From Candidatus Omnitrophota bacterium (lineage in GTDB: Bacteria; Omnitrophota; Koll11; VGKN01), in contig VGKN01000066.1 in the NCBI GenBank assembly GCA_016867055.1, positions 1 through 7,641 of the forward strand: a stretch of DNA of 7,641 bases, read 5' to 3'. Below the pieces are notes generated by a model that did no database searches, was not told where the DNA came from, and was given only the letters and a program-made list of their open reading frames with translations. Shown in pieces: positions 1 to 7,641 of this stretch (positions are counted from its first letter, which is position 1; each line of letters begins with the position of its first letter). The translations under genes and the position numbers were made by a program.

Positions 1-1526
1 AGTATATAATATAGGAAGTGTCCCAACCATACACTCTCACCCTTCCACTTGGGACCTACATTGCTTAAGCCATCATTCCAGTCTCCCTCACCTATTAGGG
101 GAAGTCCTCTTTTACTAAAGCGGGATAAGACAAGGTCTATTGCTTTTTTTGCATGCTCAAAAAGGCTTTCTTCGCCTGTATCTAAAAAAGGAATATTCTC
201 ATTGAGCATATTCAAGTCATTCGTTTCTTCTATATAATCCATTATAATAAAGGGAAGCCAGAGCAGGTCATCTGTATGAGCACTTTTAACACCCCTTTCT
301 ATTATGGGATCCCACCAGTGCCAAACTATGCCATCTCTAAACTGATGGCGAGCATGTAATAAAATCTGATTCTTTGTAAGTTCGCTCTTAAGGGGAAGAA
401 AAATTTGGCTATCCTGAAGCTGGTCACGAAAACCATACGCTCCTCCTATCTGATAATAGGCAGTTCTTGCCCAAAGCCTGCAGGATATTGCCTGATATTT
501 AAGCCAGGTATTTACTAATATGTCAAGGTGTTTATCGGGGGTTGAAACCGAATTTTTATCCAGCATATCTTCCCAGAAAACCTTTAAGTCCTCAAATGCC
601 TTCTCAACCTCCCTTTGTCCTTTATATTTCCTTATAATCTCCTGTGCCTTTGATTTTGTCTTAGAAACTCCGAGGACGAATGCTATGGTTTTCTCTTCAT
701 TTACCTCAAGTTCCAGATTTATGTGTAAACTTCCAATGGCATCAAGCCATTTTCCCTCTCTCGGATTACACATTCCATTTTCTATAGCCTTGGGATTCAG
801 AAATGTCCTATACATACCTATAAAAGATTCCTTGTCGCTCGTATATGATGTCGGTTCCTCGCTTAAACTATGAAACGCAAGATAATCCCACTCCTTGTTC
901 ATATAGTCATCATTTTTGCCCGGGATCTGCCAGAGTCTTTTTGTGGCAAATATTGCCTGGAGATTTTTATTATAGAAAGTTTCTAAGAATGTCCTGTGAA
1001 ACTCCCTGTGCCAGTCAGGATATTCTCCCAGGCACCACTCAATATAAGAAAAAACCCCTATACTTCTTTTATAAGGGCTGAGATTTTTTATCTTAACCTG
1101 CCATATCTCCGCATCCTCAGTCGGGGGAATAAAAATAAGAAGAGTACTTTCTATCTCTTTGTATTTAGACTTAACACGGGAATATCCTATGCCATGCCTT
1201 ACTTCATAAAAATCAGGCCAATAACAGGTAGGCTTATAACACAATGACCAAGCACTTGCTGTTTTATTATCCCTTATATAAATAAATTTTCCCCATTCGT
1301 CCTTTATAAGGTCCTGTTCACAGCGGGTGAGTCTATTTATCCTTGCATGGGTAAGCCAGGAATAGCCTGTTCCTGTGGAGGCAAACGTCAAACCATATTC
1401 TCCATTTGAGATTACGTTTATCCAGGGGCTTGGTGTGTCATGCCTTGTTATCACAAATTCCCTTCCATCCTCTGTAAAATATCCGTACCTGGTTTTATAC
1501 AATGCTACCCGCGGCTTTTCTCTCAT
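1..1526 (-). CDS. GH94-type glycoside phosphorylase (GT36/cellobiose phosphorylase family), 3' end outside window
   Basis: The first 508 codons are open without interruption; the C-terminal part lies beyond position 1. GH94 enzymes cleave a beta-glucosidic bond with inorganic phosphate, giving a sugar 1-phosphate in the cytoplasm. Seen here: an N-terminal segment (residues about 14-66) with TPSPWIN, NGEYGL and TGTGYSW, typical of the GH94 N-terminal beta-sandwich; GGAYGFRDQLQD (361-372) at the start of the (alpha/alpha)6 barrel; HWWDP (403-407) followed by TDDLLWLP (418-425); and GEGDWNDG (479-486), whose DWND holds the general-acid Asp (Asp482) in known family members. KGESVWLGHF (495-504) is another family signature. 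No signal peptide is seen. The start at 1524-1526 is chosen because an excellent ribosome binding site precedes it. The family is typically about 800 residues, so roughly 300 are missing. Family assignment is strong. The substrate (cellobiose, laminaribiose, chitobiose, beta-1,2-glucan or other) cannot be told. The start overlaps the upstream permease gene by 32 bp, suggesting translational coupling. Confidence 0.9.
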   Translation of the reverse strand, partial: MREKPRVALYKTRYGYFTEDGREFVITRHDTPSPWINVISNGEYGLTFASTGTGYSWLTHARINRLTRCEQDLIKDEWGKFIYIRDNKTASAWSLCYKPTCYWPDFYEVRHGIGYSRVKSKYKEIESTLLIFIPPTEDAEIWQVKIKNLSPYKRSIGVFSYIEWCLGEYPDWHREFHRTFLETFYNKNLQAIFATKRLWQIPGKNDDYMNKEWDYLAFHSLSEEPTSYTSDKESFIGMYRTFLNPKAIENGMCNPREGKWLDAIGSLHINLELEVNEEKTIAFVLGVSKTKSKAQEIIRKYKGQREVEKAFEDLKVFWEDMLDKNSVSTPDKHLDILVNTWLKYQAISCRLWARTAYYQIGGAYGFRDQLQDSQIFLPLKSELTKNQILLHARHQFRDGIVWHWWDPIIERGVKSAHTDDLLWLPFIIMDYIEETNDLNMLNENIPFLDTGEESLFEHAKKAIDLVLSRFSKRGLPLIGEGDWNDGLSNVGPKWKGESVWLGHFLYYI

Positions 1527-4500
1527 AAACAACCTCCCTTTGTTGTGTTTTTCTTACTAAAAGTCTTTTTACATCCTCAAATATGCTAAAAACACTCGGC
1601 ACAAAAAAGAGTGTAAGTATGGTGGAGGAGATAAGGCCACTTGTAACAGTTGTAGCAAAGGGTGCCCATAGCCCTGCCTCCTCAGAACGGTCCAACACCA
1701 TCGGAAGCATACCAAAGACAGTTGTAAGTGTAGTCATAAGTATAGGTCGTAATCTATCCTGTCCAGCGATTATAACCGCTCTGGTCTTGCCAAGTCCACT
1801 TTTAATCAAACTATTTACATGGTCTATCAGAATTATGGCATTATTTACTACGATACCTAAAAGCATAATTCCTCCCATTAAAACACCCATACTGACAGAT
1901 AGATGAGTTAGTCTTAGAGAAAGTACCACCCCAATAACAGCAAGGGGAACCGTAACAAGGATTATAAAAGGTTGACTATAGGATTCAAAAAGACTTGCCA
2001 GCACCAAATAAATCAACAAAAGACTTATAACCAATGCAAATGTTAACTCCTTCTGGTTTTCTGTCATCTGTGTATAGGCGCCACCGAATCTCCAGTAATA
2101 ATCCTTTGGAAATTTAAGGTCTTTTAAACCTGACTGCGAAAATTCTATGGCCTTGCCGTATGAAAGCCTTCCTATGTTGGCACTTACTTGGATCATTCGG
2201 CTTTTATTGCGTCTGTAGATTTTGCTTGGGCCCAGATTTAATTCAAACGTAGCAATCTGGTCAAGGCTTATCTGGGTGCCATCGGGTCCAGTCAATATAA
2301 GTTTATGCAGATTATCTATGGTCTTTCTATCTGATTCGTTAAGACGGGTTATCACCTCTACCTCTTTTGCTTCGGTATGATATACAGTGGCGCGTAAGCC
2401 CCTCATCTGACCATGTATACTTGAGGCTATATCGTCAATAGTTAAGCCGAATATTGCCGCTTTTTTCCTATCCACCACTACCCTCCACTCAGGCCTTCCC
2501 TCTCTTGCCCTTATCTTTACATCGGTAAGACCTTTAATTGCCTCAAGCCTTGAGGCTACTGAGTTAGCCAGGTCCCTTAAAATATCGTAATCGTATCCAT
2601 ACAAATCCACTACTATCTCCCTGATAAGCGCTTCCTGAGCCTCCTCAAAATATATAAATGTATTTGGAATTTTGGCAACAAGGGGTCTAAGGCTATCTAT
2701 CACCTCCTTGGTAGATTTATCCCTTTGGTTTGAAGGGAGAAGTTTCACATATATCTTGCTCTCCCAGGGTTCAATCCTTGAAGAGATTGTCACAACTTCT
2801 TTTACATCCTTAAGTATACTTTCTACCTGCGATACTGCCGAATCAGAGGCTTCTAATCTTGCGCCGGTTGGAAGTTCTATAAATATGGTGAAGGTTCCTG
2901 GTTCTGATTGCTCTATAAATTCAACCGGAATCTTAGTAAGTATTAAAACCGAAAGGATGAAAATCAAGGTGGCTAAAATTACAAGGATATATCTATACCT
3001 AATAGAAAAGACCAAGGACTTTTTATACATTAATTTAAATCCCGAAAAGGAGTAACTTCTTTTTTTAACCTTTGGACGAATTATCTTAGATGCCATTGTT
3101 GGAACCAAGGTAATGGCAACAACCAAAGAAGAGAGTAAGGAATACGTGATGGTTAAACACAACCCGCTATAAAGAAGCCTTATCTCCTTAGTAACAAATA
3201 TGATGGGTAAAAAAACAACTACAGTGGTAACAGTGGATGCCACTATTGCAAGAAGCATCTCTTCGCTTCCAACTATTGATGCCTTCATAACATCTAACCC
3301 TTTTTCTATCTTGGCATAAATATTTTCAATTACCACAATGCTATTGTCTACCAACATACCCACGCCTAAGGTAAGCCCGGTTAAGGTCATAACATTTAAG
3401 GTTATTTCCTGAAAATACATAATACCAAAGGTTATAAGAATAGCTATGGGGATTGAAACAGCTATTATTACTGTTGGACGCCAATTAAGCAAAAATAGAA
3501 ACAATATCGCTATAGCTAAAAAACCTCCTATCTTCAAAGAATCCATCACCCTGTTTATTTCCTTTATTATGGCCTCAGCCTGATTTAAGGTGGTTACTAC
3601 CCTTATATTTTTATCAAGTAGCGGTTTTATTTTCTTTATCTCTTCTTCAACCGCCTTTGTTACCTTTATGGTATTGGCAAGGCTTTCTTTTTGTATATAT
3701 ATCGAGACGGCGGAGTTTACATTAACGCGCGCAAAACCTGTAGGTTCAAGATAAGAGTCTCTTACAGTTGCTACATCTTTCAATCTCACAATAGAGCCCT
3801 GCGCTGTGGTAAATATTCCTATATCGCCTATTTCATTAACATCTCTAAACTGACCTAAGGTCCTTATAAGATACTTGTCTTTTTGTTTCTCCACCTCGCC
3901 AACCAAAAGGTCAAAGTTACTGGCTCCTAAAACACCTATAATCCTTTCCATAGGTATACCGTATGAGGCAAGACGTACCTTATCAAACTCAACCAGGATT
4001 TTTCTTTCTCTTCCGCCCACCACTTCCACATTAGCCACTCCGCTTACACGCTCTATGCGTTCCTTTATACGCTCGTCTACTACACGCCTTATCATCTCAG
4101 GAGTATACCCAAGCCCTGTAACCGCAAGTATCATAACAGGCACATCTGATTGATTAAATTTTGCTATTATGGGTTTTTCTATCTCCTTTGGCAGTTTATT
4201 CTTCACCTTGGCAAATTTCTCCCTTGTCTCAAGAGAAGCAAAATCCATATCGGTTCCCGGTTCAAAACTTAAAGCAACAATAGAACGCCCCTCTTCAGAT
4301 ACAGATGTCATACTTTTTAATGCACCAACAGTGCCAACCGCCTCCTCTACCGGTTTTGTAACAAGTGTTTCCACGTCAACGGGAGGCATCCCTCCGCGAA
4401 TATCTATCCACACCGTAATCTCGCCAAAACTGATATTTGGCATAAGTTCAATAGGAAGTTTGGTCAAGGAGATATAACCGATGAGCACCATAGATAAAAA

Positions 4501-4551
4501 AACCATCAAAATTGTAACAGGCCTTTTAACAGATACGCTTGGTAAACCCAT
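1495..4551 (-). CDS. RND-family efflux permease (HAE1/AcrB-like), complete
   Basis: This is a complete 1018-residue inner-membrane RND permease, the usual length for hydrophobe/amphiphile-efflux members, which export drugs, lipids or other amphiphiles using the proton gradient. Seen: cytoplasmic start and TM1 (about 11-30), first porter region (31-335), TM2-TM6 (341-487), TM7 (519-538), second porter region (540-833) and TM8-TM12 (834-990). The TM4 motif GVGMLVDNSIVVIENI (396-411) and TM10 motif GIVVNNAIILID (899-910) are diagnostic, as is RLRPILMT (933-940). Compared with AcrB, Asp407 is kept (Asp402), Asp408 is Asn403 and Lys940 is Asn903, a variant common in many non-enterobacterial RND pumps. 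The start is set by the family-typical N-terminus with an RPVT motif; no Shine-Dalgarno sequence precedes it. It ends with a short tail and overlaps the GH94 start by 32 bp. It pairs with the upstream permease. Substrate unknown. CzcA-type metal efflux is unlikely, because the TM4 motif is not of that type. Confidence 0.95.
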   Translation of the reverse strand: MGLPSVSVKRPVTILMVFLSMVLIGYISLTKLPIELMPNISFGEITVWIDIRGGMPPVDVETLVTKPVEEAVGTVGALKSMTSVSEEGRSIVALSFEPGTDMDFASLETREKFAKVKNKLPKEIEKPIIAKFNQSDVPVMILAVTGLGYTPEMIRRVVDERIKERIERVSGVANVEVVGGRERKILVEFDKVRLASYGIPMERIIGVLGASNFDLLVGEVEKQKDKYLIRTLGQFRDVNEIGDIGIFTTAQGSIVRLKDVATVRDSYLEPTGFARVNVNSAVSIYIQKESLANTIKVTKAVEEEIKKIKPLLDKNIRVVTTLNQAEAIIKEINRVMDSLKIGGFLAIAILFLFLLNWRPTVIIAVSIPIAILITFGIMYFQEITLNVMTLTGLTLGVGMLVDNSIVVIENIYAKIEKGLDVMKASIVGSEEMLLAIVASTVTTVVVFLPIIFVTKEIRLLYSGLCLTITYSLLSSLVVAITLVPTMASKIIRPKVKKRSYSFSGFKLMYKKSLVFSIRYRYILVILATLIFILSVLILTKIPVEFIEQSEPGTFTIFIELPTGARLEASDSAVSQVESILKDVKEVVTISSRIEPWESKIYVKLLPSNQRDKSTKEVIDSLRPLVAKIPNTFIYFEEAQEALIREIVVDLYGYDYDILRDLANSVASRLEAIKGLTDVKIRAREGRPEWRVVVDRKKAAIFGLTIDDIASSIHGQMRGLRATVYHTEAKEVEVITRLNESDRKTIDNLHKLILTGPDGTQISLDQIATFELNLGPSKIYRRNKSRMIQVSANIGRLSYGKAIEFSQSGLKDLKFPKDYYWRFGGAYTQMTENQKELTFALVISLLLIYLVLASLFESYSQPFIILVTVPLAVIGVVLSLRLTHLSVSMGVLMGGIMLLGIVVNNAIILIDHVNSLIKSGLGKTRAVIIAGQDRLRPILMTTLTTVFGMLPMVLDRSEEAGLWAPFATTVTSGLISSTILTLFFVPSVFSIFEDVKRLLVRKTQQREVVYERKAAGSIV
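1531..1540 (-). promoter_or_regulatory. Shine-Dalgarno site for the GH94 gene
   Basis: On the minus strand this reads AAGGGAGGTT, with the GGGAGG core at 1533-1538 and 6 nt to the ATG at 1524-1526. It is a near-ideal ribosome binding site and fixes the GH94 start. It lies inside the last codons of the upstream RND permease gene, so ribosomes finishing that gene pass over it. This fits coupled translation. The strength of this site contrasts with the lack of one at the permease start (4551). Confidence 0.85.
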
Positions 4552-4619: not shown

Positions 4620-4659
4620 AATTAGTTGCGCCTGTCTGCTGTCTACAGTGCAACTAATT
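4620..4659 (-). repeat. 10-bp perfect inverted repeat spanning the stop codon of the wHTH-tailed permease
   Basis: The 10-bp arms at 4620-4629 (AATTAGTTGC on the plus strand) and 4650-4659 (GCAACTAATT) are exact reverse complements separated by 20 nt. Within the loop, CTGT and ACAG can pair further (for example 4639-4642 with 4645-4648). The right arm is coding and the TAG stop (4643-4645) lies in the loop. It abuts the hexamer-repeat hairpin without a gap, so together they form a double stem-loop. No U-run follows on the minus strand, so an intrinsic terminator is unlikely. Confidence 0.6.
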
Positions 4660-7641
4660 CATAATACCTTCCCACCGCTAATGGTCCGCGACCTATGATA
4701 AGACCACGCTCAACCAAATCCTTTAGGTCTCTTGCTGCTGTAGGTACCGAGGTTTTAAAAATTTTTGCGTAGTCCTTTCTTGAAATAGCGCTATATTGTC
4801 TTAAATATTCTATTGCTTTACGCTGCCTCTTATTTAAAGGTGGAATATACTTTTCTCTTGCTAGAATTTCCTCCTTTGGCTTTTCCTCCTCGGTAATTTT
4901 CTCTTCTTTAGGTAATGCCTGGGGTATCTGCGGTTCTAATTCAGGAAGTTTTTTCTGCTCGGGAGGCGCTGGTAGCAGTTCTTCTTTTTGGGGTTCTAAT
5001 TCAGGTAGGATTACCTCGCTTGGCTTTTCTTCTTCAGTTATCCTTGGCTCTTCAGGGACTACCTTTGGTTCTTCTTCAATAGTTGGAGATGGGACTTTTT
5101 CCCTCTCTAATTCAGGTGGAAGTTCTTCAGCGGGTTTCTCTTCTTCAATTATCTTTGGTTCTTCAGCAGCAGGTGTTTCTGTTTTCTGCTCTATCTCAGG
5201 TAAAATCTCTTTTACAGGTTCTATCTTTTCCTCAATTATCTTTGGCGCTTCAGGAATTGCTTTTGGTTCTTCTTCAACAGGCAGAGAGGGTACTTTTTCC
5301 CTCTCTAATTCAGGTGGAAGTTTCTCAGCGGGTTTCTCTTCTTCAATAATCTCAGGGGTTAACTTTTCTTTCTCTAATTCAGGTGGAAGTTCCTCAATGG
5401 GTTTCTCTTCTTCAATTATCCTTGGTTCTTCAGAAATTGTTTTTGGTTCTTCTTCAACAGGCGAGGTTTCCTTTTTTATTTCTACTTCTTCAATTTTAGC
5501 TTCTTTAATGAGTGGAGGCTCTACGGGTTTTTCTAACATAGCTCCAACTTCTTTTAACATTGTCTGAGGTCTGGATGTCTCTGTAGATATGATGGGTGCT
5601 TTTTCTTCAACTCTCTTTTCCTCCAATGCAACAGCTGCCTCTAAAGGAATTTGCTTTTTCCTTCTAAAAACAGCCTCCGCTATTTTTGTTGAAGAAAGAT
5701 AAAGAGAGGGTATTACAACTAAAGTAAGAAATGTTGCAGAGAGAAGCCCACCCATAGTGGTCTTTGCCAAAGGCGCATCAAGTTCTGAGCCTTCCGAGAA
5801 ACCCAATGCAAGCGGAAGTAATCCCAATACAGAGGTAAAGGCGGTCATAAGAATGGGTCTTAAGCGCACCTTTCCCGCTCTAACAGCAGCATCATATAAC
5901 CCAACACTACGGCTACGCAGAATGTTAGTATAGTCAATGAGAATAATACCATTATTTACAACAATACCACCCTGCATAATTATACCGAGCAATACTACAA
6001 CACTTAAGGTGGTATGGGTTATATATAAGGTCCATACTATACCAATAAGCGATAGTGGTATAGTAAACATAATTAGAAATGGCTGCCATAGCGACTCAAA
6101 TTGGGCTGCCATAATCATATAGACCAGTATAACCGCTAATGTTAATGCAAAAATAAGACTTTGAAACGACTCCTTCATCCTCTCAGTCTCACCTGTCAGC
6201 TTAACAGTGTAGCCCTTTGGGATTCTAATAGTTCCTAAAAGTTGGTTTATTTCCTCCTGCACCTCATTTAAAGGACGTTTATATATATTTGCGGATATCA
6301 AAACAGTCCTCTGCTGGTCAATCCTTCTTATCTCAGAGGGACCCTTTCCAATACCTATATATGTAACCTCTTTTAAGGGAACCTGCATTCCCAAGGGAGA
6401 ACTTAATAATATAGCCCCTACCTTTGAGATATCCTTCCTATCCTCTTGCCTTAGTCTTACTCTTATATCTATCTCTTTCCCAGCCTCTTTAAATCTGGTT
6501 GCAATATAGCCCTTAAGGGCAACCTGCGCGGTTGCTGCAATGTCTTTTACAGATAACCCATAGGTGGATGCACTATCTTTTAATACCCATATCTTTGTCT
6601 CAGGAGAAGGGCTAGCTAGATTATTTTTTATGCCGTAAAGACCATTTACCTTGCCAAGATGTAATTGTATAGCCTCGGTCAAGGTCCTTAAGGTGTTAAT
6701 ATTAGGCCCCTTTATATCAATAATAACTGGGGCGCTTGATTCAAAGGCTGTTTTTAGAGCGCTTTCCTGTGCTATAAACTGGATCTCGGCTTGTAAAAGT
6801 TCCATCTTGGATAGCTTATCCTTCAAGCCCTGCATAAAATCAGCTGTTGATACCTGTCTTTCCTTTTTAAGGTTTACCATAATCTGCGCCTGATGGGAGC
6901 CGAGCGTCTCGAGCATCTCGCCCCTTGCGCGTTCTCTGCTTGAGCCAATATTTAAGGTAATCTCACTAACAACGGGGTCAGTTAAAAGGAGATTCTCAAT
7001 CTTTTTAATAACTGAGTCTGTTACTGAAATTCTTGTCCCTGGCGACATATCTATTTTCATAACAAATTGCCCTTGGTCTATCTTAGGCATAAATTCTCTA
7101 TCCAATCCTAAAAACTGCCTCATAGAAAATAAAAACATTAAGAAGACCATCAAAAGATACAAAAATCTGTGTTTCAGAAAACCCTCTATAACCTTAGCAT
7201 ATATAATTTCAATAAGGTCTATGGGCTTTCCAAGAAATTCAAGGAATTTATTCCTTGGTGCTGATTCAAGCAACCCCTCTTCATCCTCTTGCACTTCAGT
7301 TTTGGTGGCTTTTTTGATATAGGATTTATCCTTTGACTGAGATACAAGACAGGGTATAAGCATAAAGGCAATTATTAGTGAGACCACCTGTGTTACAATA
7401 ACAACCCACGCAAGCTCTTTAAACAACTGCCCTGCAATACCCACTACAAACACCATCGGGAAAAACACGCATATGGTTGTAAGGGTTGAGGCTATCATAG
7501 GCGCAATTACCTCGTTACTTCCTATAACTGCCGCCTCCTTGGCTTGGAGCCCCTGTCTTCTATATCTGTAAATACTCTCCACAACAACTATGGCGTTATC
7601 AATAAGCATTCCCACGCCTATCGCCATCCCACCTAAGGACA
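4643..7641 (-). CDS. RND efflux permease fused to Glu/Pro-rich tail and C-terminal winged helix-turn-helix domain (5' end outside window)
   Basis: Numbering is from the internal Met at 7625-7627. The frame stays open to the window edge, with Ser-Leu-Gly-Gly just before this Met, so that Met lies within TM4 and is not the start. By alignment with the neighbouring permease about 390 residues are missing, giving a full length near 1385, versus about 1020-1050 for normal family members. Visible: TM4 with GVGMLIDNAIVVVESI (4-19), TM5-TM6 (42-95), TM7 (153-173), second porter region (174-485), TM8-TM12 (487-645) including GIVVNNGIILID (554-565) and RLRPILMT (588-595). After TM12 comes a cytoplasmic tail: a Glu/Pro/Lys-rich linker (about 657-926) and a basic winged-helix domain (about 927-994) resembling the DeoR-like or Fic-protein C-terminal wHTH. 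Continuity is unbroken and no ribosome binding site is seen for a separate tail gene. The pump assignment is firm; DNA binding by the tail is inferred. It is the first of two tandem permease genes, 91 bp upstream of the second. Confidence 0.93.
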   Translation of the reverse strand, partial: SLGGMAIGVGMLIDNAIVVVESIYRYRRQGLQAKEAAVIGSNEVIAPMIASTLTTICVFFPMVFVVGIAGQLFKELAWVVIVTQVVSLIIAFMLIPCLVSQSKDKSYIKKATKTEVQEDEEGLLESAPRNKFLEFLGKPIDLIEIIYAKVIEGFLKHRFLYLLMVFLMFLFSMRQFLGLDREFMPKIDQGQFVMKIDMSPGTRISVTDSVIKKIENLLLTDPVVSEITLNIGSSRERARGEMLETLGSHQAQIMVNLKKERQVSTADFMQGLKDKLSKMELLQAEIQFIAQESALKTAFESSAPVIIDIKGPNINTLRTLTEAIQLHLGKVNGLYGIKNNLASPSPETKIWVLKDSASTYGLSVKDIAATAQVALKGYIATRFKEAGKEIDIRVRLRQEDRKDISKVGAILLSSPLGMQVPLKEVTYIGIGKGPSEIRRIDQQRTVLISANIYKRPLNEVQEEINQLLGTIRIPKGYTVKLTGETERMKESFQSLIFALTLAVILVYMIMAAQFESLWQPFLIMFTIPLSLIGIVWTLYITHTTLSVVVLLGIIMQGGIVVNNGIILIDYTNILRSRSVGLYDAAVRAGKVRLRPILMTAFTSVLGLLPLALGFSEGSELDAPLAKTTMGGLLSATFLTLVVIPSLYLSSTKIAEAVFRRKKQIPLEAAVALEEKRVEEKAPIISTETSRPQTMLKEVGAMLEKPVEPPLIKEAKIEEVEIKKETSPVEEEPKTISEEPRIIEEEKPIEELPPELEKEKLTPEIIEEEKPAEKLPPELEREKVPSLPVEEEPKAIPEAPKIIEEKIEPVKEILPEIEQKTETPAAEEPKIIEEEKPAEELPPELEREKVPSPTIEEEPKVVPEEPRITEEEKPSEVILPELEPQKEELLPAPPEQKKLPELEPQIPQALPKEEKITEEEKPKEEILAREKYIPPLNKRQRKAIEYLRQYSAISRKDYAKIFKTSVPTAARDLKDLVERGLIIGRGPLAVGRYYELVAL
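4646..4849 (-). other. C-terminal winged helix-turn-helix domain of the fused permease
   Basis: This encodes residues about 927-994 of the fused permease (numbered from Met 7627). The pattern is characteristic: LNKRQRKAIEYL (931-942, helix 1), ISRKDYAKIF (948-957, helix 2), SVPTAARDLKDLVERGLI (960-977, recognition helix and exit), then a Gly-rich wing and strand, GRGPLAVGRYYEL (979-991). It resembles the wHTH found at the C-terminus of many Fic-family proteins and in DeoR-type regulators, where the S-x-x-TAxRDLxxLVxxG signature is common. The segment 931-994 has 14 Lys/Arg against 6 Asp/Glu, in sharp contrast to the acidic linker, and this charge fits nucleic-acid binding. The protein ends directly after the domain. 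DNA binding is predicted from the fold only; some wHTH domains bind proteins instead. Confidence 0.85.
4850..5659 (-). other. Glu/Pro/Lys-rich repetitive linker region of the fused permease
   Basis: This encodes residues about 657-926 of the fused permease (numbered from Met 7627). The first 60 or so residues are charged but not clearly repetitive. From about residue 721 the tail consists of degenerate repeats with a core like IIEEEKPAEELPPELEREK (about 737-756, 760-779 and 826-845) alternating with EEEPKxIPEEP-type segments. There are no hydrophobic stretches, so it is cytoplasmic and probably extended or disordered, similar in character to Pro/Glu/Lys spacers such as that of TonB. Its likely role is to hold the terminal wHTH away from the membrane. 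Confidence 0.85.
5094..5420 (-). repeat. Three near-identical 60-bp in-frame repeats inside the linker
   Basis: Copies lie at about 5094-5153, 5292-5351 and 5361-5420. The first two differ at only 3 of 60 positions by eye; the third is somewhat more diverged. They are offset by 198 and 69 bp, both multiples of three, so duplication has kept the reading frame. More diverged relatives occur downstream at about 4984-5055. The near identity at DNA level, rather than only in protein, points to fairly recent expansion of the linker by tandem duplication or slippage, and predicts length variation between related strains. Confidence 0.75.

Follow-up and report, generated by a model that had tools for sequence, protein, structure and literature searches.

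A predicted DNA-binding tail on RND efflux permeases of Omnitrophota and the direct-repeat arrays that accompany it in most lineages

In the window, i.e. the whole 7,641-bp stretch of contig VGKN01000066.1 (assembly GCA_016867055.1) from a Candidatus Omnitrophota bacterium, a gene of the minus strand (RND1) encodes an efflux permease of the RND (resistance-nodulation-division) superfamily that ends in a winged helix-turn-helix (wHTH) domain, referred to below as the tail. What is new here is a set of arrays of a short site (CGTATCA, or in full AACCGTATCA) that lie at the pump promoter and at the replication origin of related genomes and track the tail: A-type tails and sites are jointly present or jointly absent in most lineages examined, genome G007 being the exception. 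On balance, we think it probable from these sequence comparisons that RND1 binds DNA through a domain tethered to the pump, regulating its own operon and binding, perhaps also anchoring, the region around the origin. Regulators of transporters are usually separate soluble proteins, whereas one subunit of this pump seems to have a DNA-binding domain of its own. If the arrays beside the origin are targets of the tail, a transporter would be tied to chromosome organization in a mostly uncultured phylum. The predicted binding sequence is testable in vitro on the 68-residue domain, and the joint loss of tail and arrays constitutes a natural experiment.

The permease-tail fusion and its distribution

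A single stop-free frame of 998 aa, extending on the minus strand from the contig edge (position 7639) to position 4643, joins an RND permease, an E- and P-rich linker and a winged helix of 68 residues in one chain (Table 1). The 5′ end of the gene is cut by the contig edge, and both the N-terminal third of the permease and the operon promoter are off the contig. A preliminary description of this DNA had proposed one frame of this composition, and the stop-free frame, the Pfam matches and the fold model bear it out; the linker that it reported is present, although with about 282 residues instead of about 270. Position 7627 is not the real start of the permease. The fusion is genuine. The contig is short and the linker contains a repeat, but the same architecture was found in more than 100 protein clusters and dozens of independent genomes, and an assembly join or a frame error therefore has a negligible probability.

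The match to the ACR_tran profile over residues 1–648 assigns the protein to the RND superfamily (HAE1-type permeases). The C-terminus of RND permeases faces the cytoplasm. Across 30 proteins in which it could be measured with a regular expression (window included), the linker ranges from 25 to 511 residues.

The Pfam HTH_DeoR profile matches residues 938–982 of the window protein with 22.4 bits (cut-off 21), a check that the preliminary description had recommended; when the tail was searched alone, both HTH_DeoR (25.3 bits) and HTH_24 (22.3 bits) exceeded their cut-offs. AlphaFold2 modelling from an alignment of 40 tails gave a wHTH fold with a mean confidence (pLDDT) of 94.2, comprising helices at residues 7–19, 24–30 and 35–47 and strands at 51–54 and 62–65; this model, which also answers the earlier call for a structure prediction, supersedes a single-sequence prediction (pLDDT 61). 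As modelled, the tail is a winged helix-turn-helix, and the score above the Pfam gathering cut-off together with the fold places it among DeoR-type winged helices. It forms the end of the protein, and Pfam and NCBIfam scans revealed no C-terminal sugar-phosphate sensor domain of the kind present in full-length DeoR-family regulators.

Outside Omnitrophota, the closest relatives of the tail are the C-terminal winged helices of Fic enzymes (CbFic2, SoFic, CccR), a likeness already suggested in the preliminary description, and the best PDB sequence match is a Fic enzyme (8cil). Only the wHTH is shared with them: no Fic domain was detected in the window protein by the Pfam scan. Unlike RND1, Fic enzymes are soluble AMP-transferases without a membrane part, and their DNA targets are palindromes or unspecific DNA as opposed to direct repeats.

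Among the top 120 homology matches, one is the window's own protein; the tail is present in 104 of the other 119, which amply answers the earlier call for further proteins combining ACR_tran with this domain, and is missing from 15. All organism-named matches are from Omnitrophota except one labelled only “bacterium”. The motif T-[AST]-[AST]-R-D-[LI] occurs in all 105 tails within these matches, while the invariance of the recognition helix in alignments A1 and A2 is partly due to selection, their rows having been picked with that motif. The ratio of non-synonymous to synonymous substitution rates (11 pairs of related loci, some overlapping) is 0.10 for the tail, 0.08 for the permease core and 0.33 for the linker; the tail is under purifying selection.

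A tail-motif scan of 84,980 species genomes yielded 85 confirmed stretches, of which 80 loci were kept. Half of these (40) are from Omnitrophota, one of them assigned through its taxonomy entry, and 39 have an open reading frame (ORF) for the tail; in 35 of the 39 this ORF also encodes the RND core, and the other four are cut by contig ends. The remaining 40 loci belong to other phyla, have much lower scores and mostly encode proteins of about 320 aa, and Fic enzyme identity was confirmed for all five tested. In 384 Omnitrophota genomes, strong tails (at least 93 bits) were detected in 50, as 51 copies (eight of them in short or cut frames of 164–736 aa); a clear gap divides them from the weaker wHTH proteins, which score 59 bits or less. 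All of these comparisons, as well as those below, are based on fragmented metagenome assemblies.

The weak matches included a second, divergent tail (clade B), carried by the same permease family. This tail has a mean net charge of +1.6 and an acidic recognition helix, compared to +6.5 for A-type tails (31 and 127 tails, respectively; the column table includes only the 29 and 60 that were long enough). Because A-type tails were defined by motif, and six B tails reassigned by eye, conservation within A is partly a matter of definition. The members of this clade (L309–L313, proteins P0121–P0151) keep their tail and lack DNA site arrays.

In a tree built from 180 of 183 rows (179 RND1 cores plus an RND2 outgroup), clade B is monophyletic with support of 100. 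The simplest history is one gain of the tail followed by later loss, the deepest branch being weak (support 30). A tree of 86 loci, from which 14 loci with an untrimmable core were omitted, requires four changes among three states (tail, tail-less, clade B).

A soluble, stand-alone family of tails was considered and rejected: the 60 short matches are mostly on short contigs or marked partial. One short match (P0212, 67 aa, on a 14-kb contig) is not marked partial. The assembly of locus L163 has RND1-wHTH in two separate frames (663 and 506 aa), owing to a real break or a sequencing error.

Candidate sites at the pump promoter and near the replication origin

The usual gene order in related loci is (ROK regulator) - OEP - MFP - RND1-wHTH - RND2, in which OEP is the outer membrane efflux protein and MFP the membrane fusion protein. 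The MFP (HlyD_D23) and OEP components of RND pumps are thus encoded in related loci, in a part of the operon to which the window does not reach. An RND2-type gene is located 3′ of RND1 in most related loci; in the window, RND2 starts 91 bases past the end of RND1, and the window therefore fits the usual order. Tail-less RND1 loci usually retain ROK, OEP, MFP and RND2.

CGTATCA was found upstream of OEP in 22 of 24 tail loci (0.5 expected), whereas the best 7-mer in 60 shuffles of these regions reached 13 of 24; TATCA repeats 11 bp apart occur in 14 of the 24 regions (0.0 expected). These loci, and the 25 compared below, are mutually related to varying degrees. The full candidate site, AACCGTATCA, is non-palindromic and occurs mostly as direct repeats, with a period of 11 bp (nine neighbour pairs) or 9 bp (two pairs). 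In one group it is placed just upstream of a good sigma-70 promoter, abutting the −35 box, and in other groups near the −10/start region. The latter placement would suit repression, while placement upstream of the promoter would suit either sign of regulation.

Within −300 to +30 of OEP, CGTATCA is present in 23 of 25 tail loci (21 strictly upstream) compared with none of 28 tail-less and none of five clade-B loci (Fisher 3e-14, with related rows). The tail loci without the 7-mer are L005 and L162; in L157 and L163 it is confined to the gene's first 30 bases. The promoter arrays suggest feedback control of the pump. The preliminary description had proposed that the fusion controls its own operon, and the presence of these arrays in related tail loci and their absence from tail-less orthologues point in that direction; however, the sites also occur at the origin, so that this is not the whole story, and none was found in the window's lineage. 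In addition, many tail operons have a separate soluble ROK-type regulator encoded upstream. The interpretation in the preliminary description is thus partly supported.

Repeat searches upstream of ROK (8 loci), RND1 (29) and c3 (11; a gene of the subclade variant described below) revealed nothing clearly beyond shuffles, and five upstream regions of c7 yielded a weak, different word. The window itself contains no site (8 near-matches with up to two mismatches, 5.0 expected), as expected since its promoter is off the contig.

Distant tandem sites precede a ParA-type gene in 11 loci (identified by Pfam in two and grouped by BLAST in the rest), at a distance of 7 to 259 bases from the parA frame and of at most 10 bases in four. 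In L205, the neighbouring genes encode DnaA, RNase P, YidC, Jag and ParB, a block of the kind that commonly flanks replication origins. In the 70 of 80 genomes where yidC was found, the surrounding DNA was sampled over at most about 8 kb. In this region (dnaA-yidC-jag-parAB), 96 exact copies of ACCGTATCA are present in 30 of 44 tail genomes, where the reversed motif occurs once and base composition predicts 2.4. No copy was found in this region in 20 tail-less genomes (composition 1.3) or in six clade-B genomes (reversed motif 1). Of the 96 sites, 45 fall within the yidC ORF, 41 downstream of it in the direction of parA and past it, and 10 upstream; 30 are oriented along yidC and 66 in the opposite direction. 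Spacings between sites on the same strand peak at 11 and 12 bp. Genome G149, which is tail-less within a clade of 20 (19 with tail-bearing RND1, support 98), has no origin sites. Site enrichment near the origin thus holds in related tail genomes, in which the tail may be the binder; the window's lineage shows none.

Palindromes resembling parS lie apart from the arrays in 20 of 44 tail, 2 of 20 tail-less (L314–L333) and 5 of 6 clade-B yidC regions, and the array is therefore unlikely to be the site of ParB.

Covariation of sites and tail, and the candidate binders

Over the 384 genomes, the exact tandem site was detected in 26 of 50 with a strong tail and in 12 of the 334 others; a consensus second unit occurs in only 3 of the 334, and the reversed tandem pattern produced four matches in all 384. 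The three genomes with consensus tandems but without a strong tail match are G183 (match inside an ORF), G292 (RND1 frame cut by a contig end) and G317 (RND2-like gene cut by a contig end). Single sites outnumber the reversed control 371 to 154 in the 50 tail genomes (p 4e-7), whereas the difference is not significant in 24 tail-less (97 to 75) and six clade-B genomes (37 to 24); 80 of the 93 first-listed entries were used for these counts. One exact site in all (L290) was found in 35 tail-less RND1 loci and one (L311) in five clade-B loci, with no tandem in either group. Two (starred) to three independent contrasts are available: over 200 pairings, a mean of 1.8 were in the expected direction, none in the opposite one and 0.2 without difference.

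Binding of the arrays by the A-type tail appears to be the simplest reading, because the presence, absence and position of the sites mostly match, DNA binding with the help of this domain is reported for the closest relative of known structure, and autorepression is reported for CccR. In CbFic2 (PDB 8cil), the C-terminal wHTH is reported to contribute to DNA binding, and CccR to repress its own promoter through binding to palindromes (PMC10628234). Direct repeats without a dyad would be better suited to several identical, flexibly tethered domains on a pump oligomer than to a dimeric soluble protein. From sequence comparison we infer the tail as the probable array binder, as well as a putative sign of regulation, anchoring and a link to pump activity.

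According to this proposal, RND1 would serve as inner-membrane permease in a tripartite pump (OEP - MFP - RND1-wHTH - RND2) with its wHTH on a flexible linker, and several wHTH copies per pump oligomer would bind AACCGTATCA arrays, the units of which are about one helical turn apart. Arrays on the pump's own promoter, which abut or overlap the RNA polymerase site, would most simply mediate self-repression; those inside yidC and before parA may hold origin DNA near the pump and/or tune the expression of yidC and parAB.

Several observations weigh against binding by the tail. No exact tandem was found in 24 of the 50 strong-tail genomes and no site near yidC in 14 of the 44 sampled, some of them on short contigs. 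Two to three contrasts cannot reach significance (sign test p at least 0.5), and with so few another lineage-specific protein could be the binder. DNA binding is probably not a property of all tails, given the acidic helix of clade B and the lack of arrays in clade-B genomes, and the same fold occurs in proteins other than DNA-binding regulators. The CbFic2 assay employed random DNA, its binding was possibly non-specific, and residual binding was reported without the HTH (PMC10628234). Finally, the tail is retained in G007 (genome of locus L001), the whole genome nearest to the window, yet no exact ACCGTATCA was found on the 40-kb contig (C7) that bears its pump operon; the genome shows no array, and the motif barely exceeds its reversed form (9-mer 18 to 15, 10-mer 7 to 3). 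These counts cover exact sites. This is the only whole genome representing the window's lineage, and its yidC contig is 3.6 kb long; L001 is outside the 25 loci and the contrasts and stands beside tail-less relatives on the tree. The site may have been altered in, or lost from, the window's lineage, and the window's own tail could thus have another target. For the window, the reading would extend by homology only, and a site there is unproven.

An account that overlaps with the one favoured above, in which the tail is solely a transcription regulator of its own operon and of the yidC-jag-parA unit, without anchoring, is tenable but rather unlikely. The OEP-promoter repeats beside the −35 box or near the −10/start region and the tandem sites shortly before parA in 11 loci are as it predicts, but nearly half of the origin sites are within the yidC frame, in both orientations and often far from the start codon, unlike ordinary operators. 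The bolder view, that the efflux pump anchors the chromosome to the membrane, with the AACCGTATCA arrays beside the origin held by tethered wHTHs that also set pump expression, is offered tentatively and seems unlikely on the sequence patterns described; if true, envelope state, pump supply and origin position would be coupled in one protein.

It is likewise doubtful that another DNA-binding protein of the same lineages binds the arrays, with the pump operon as one target and the tail, for example, binding a partner protein. The small number of contrasts, the retention of the tail in G007 without exact sites on the pump contig, the arrays at the origin (the expected place for a nucleoid or partition protein) and the clade-B tails, which look unsuited to DNA yet are kept, all favour this possibility. 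Such a binder, however, would need to have been lost along with the tail twice, once in the large tail-less clade and once in G149; the parS-like palindromes of ParB lie apart from the arrays, and ROK does not fit.

The ROK-family regulator is itself a very improbable binder. Its gene is upstream of RND1 in 15 of 25 tail loci, but the site is present in all 15 of these, in 8 of the 10 without an adjacent ROK gene and in none of 22 tail-less loci with one. Four genomes with tandem sites (G237, G192, G185, G150) contain only ROK matches without an N-terminal HTH, and a fifth (G179) has no ROK match, although these five assemblies may be incomplete. NagC-type dimers bind palindromes, whereas the sites are direct repeats.

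Known systems and further features of the loci

The Pfam matches and the AlphaFold2 model of the tail place a membrane permease and a DNA-binding-type domain in one chain, the arrangement that defines transmembrane transcription regulators such as CadC, ToxR and BcrR; in contrast to these, the membrane part of RND1 is a complete RND permease of a tripartite pump. A survey of such regulators reports up to 22 transmembrane regions, and the words “RND” and “permease” are absent from its main text, although its tables may hold such proteins unremarked (PMC10269533). No RND-wHTH fusion appeared among the titles and abstract openings of the literature matches listed, which is weak evidence of absence. 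As in MdtB/MdtC, two RND permeases are encoded in one operon with MFP and OEP, but the NCBIfam scores are far below the MdtB and MdtC cut-offs, and MdtB and MdtC are not known to carry such a tail. RacA and Noc are origin-proximal, membrane-linked DNA binders that recognize clusters of short sites near the origin and are not transporters. If the tail is the binder, RND1 would resemble them in its short-site clusters near the origin and its envelope link; no sequence relation is claimed.

Table 1. Features of the window on the minus strand
Feature	Position	Strand	Basis
RND1: RND permease, C-terminal two thirds (ACR_tran profile 387–1018 of 1021)	5696..7639	−	PF00873, E 5e-134, residues 1–648
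Linker: flexible, cytoplasmic (predicted), E/P-rich, about 282 residues	4850..5695	−	
Diverged 69-bp tandem repeat in linker, 2.1 copies, 82% matches	5268..5415	−	
C-terminal winged helix-turn-helix tail (as modelled), 68 aa	4646..4849	−	
Predicted recognition helix, tail residues 35–47, motif P-T-A-A-R-D-L-K	4709..4747	−	AlphaFold2 helix 35–47
Predicted wing (GP...GRYYEL)	4655..4699	−	Alignment and AlphaFold2
RND2: the operon's other RND permease, complete, 1018 aa, without tail	1495..4551	−	

Directly after the pump genes, the window contains a gene of glycoside hydrolase family 94 (phosphorylase-type; positions 3–1532). The listed frame shares 38 bases with the end of RND2, and the true start of the gene is therefore probably located more internally.

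In a subclade variant of the operon, other secreted-looking genes are located ahead of RND1: in L022, L025, L026, L033 and L037, c7, c6 and c3 precede it and MFP is placed after RND2. Representatives of c7, c6 and c3 had no Pfam matches, and c6 and c7 resemble secreted repeat proteins. Two genomes of the c7 type (G003 and G011) contain five and six single sites some 6–7 kb before RND1, by coordinates about where the OEP gene should begin. The OEP gene of L010 (positions 2608–4440) encodes a TonB_C-like domain ahead of the OEP domain.

The RND1 operon and yidC are on one contig, within about 65 kb, in G107, G033, G006, G014, G005, G316 and G120. Nine single AACCGTATCA sites in both orientations are clustered in 2.6 kb of G208 (C13:8912–11501), several kb from an RND1-like gene. 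In seven loci (L198, L200, L202, L204, L206, L208 and L211), a tandem site is located 17 to 62 bases before the gene of an 82-aa protein with the look of a membrane protein and the motif IFIGGGTPEAPRSTGFIGLLLG; in L200, L204 and L208, a FIST-domain gene is present on the other side of the site. Further single tandem cases concern MnmG, MacB and matches inside ORFs.

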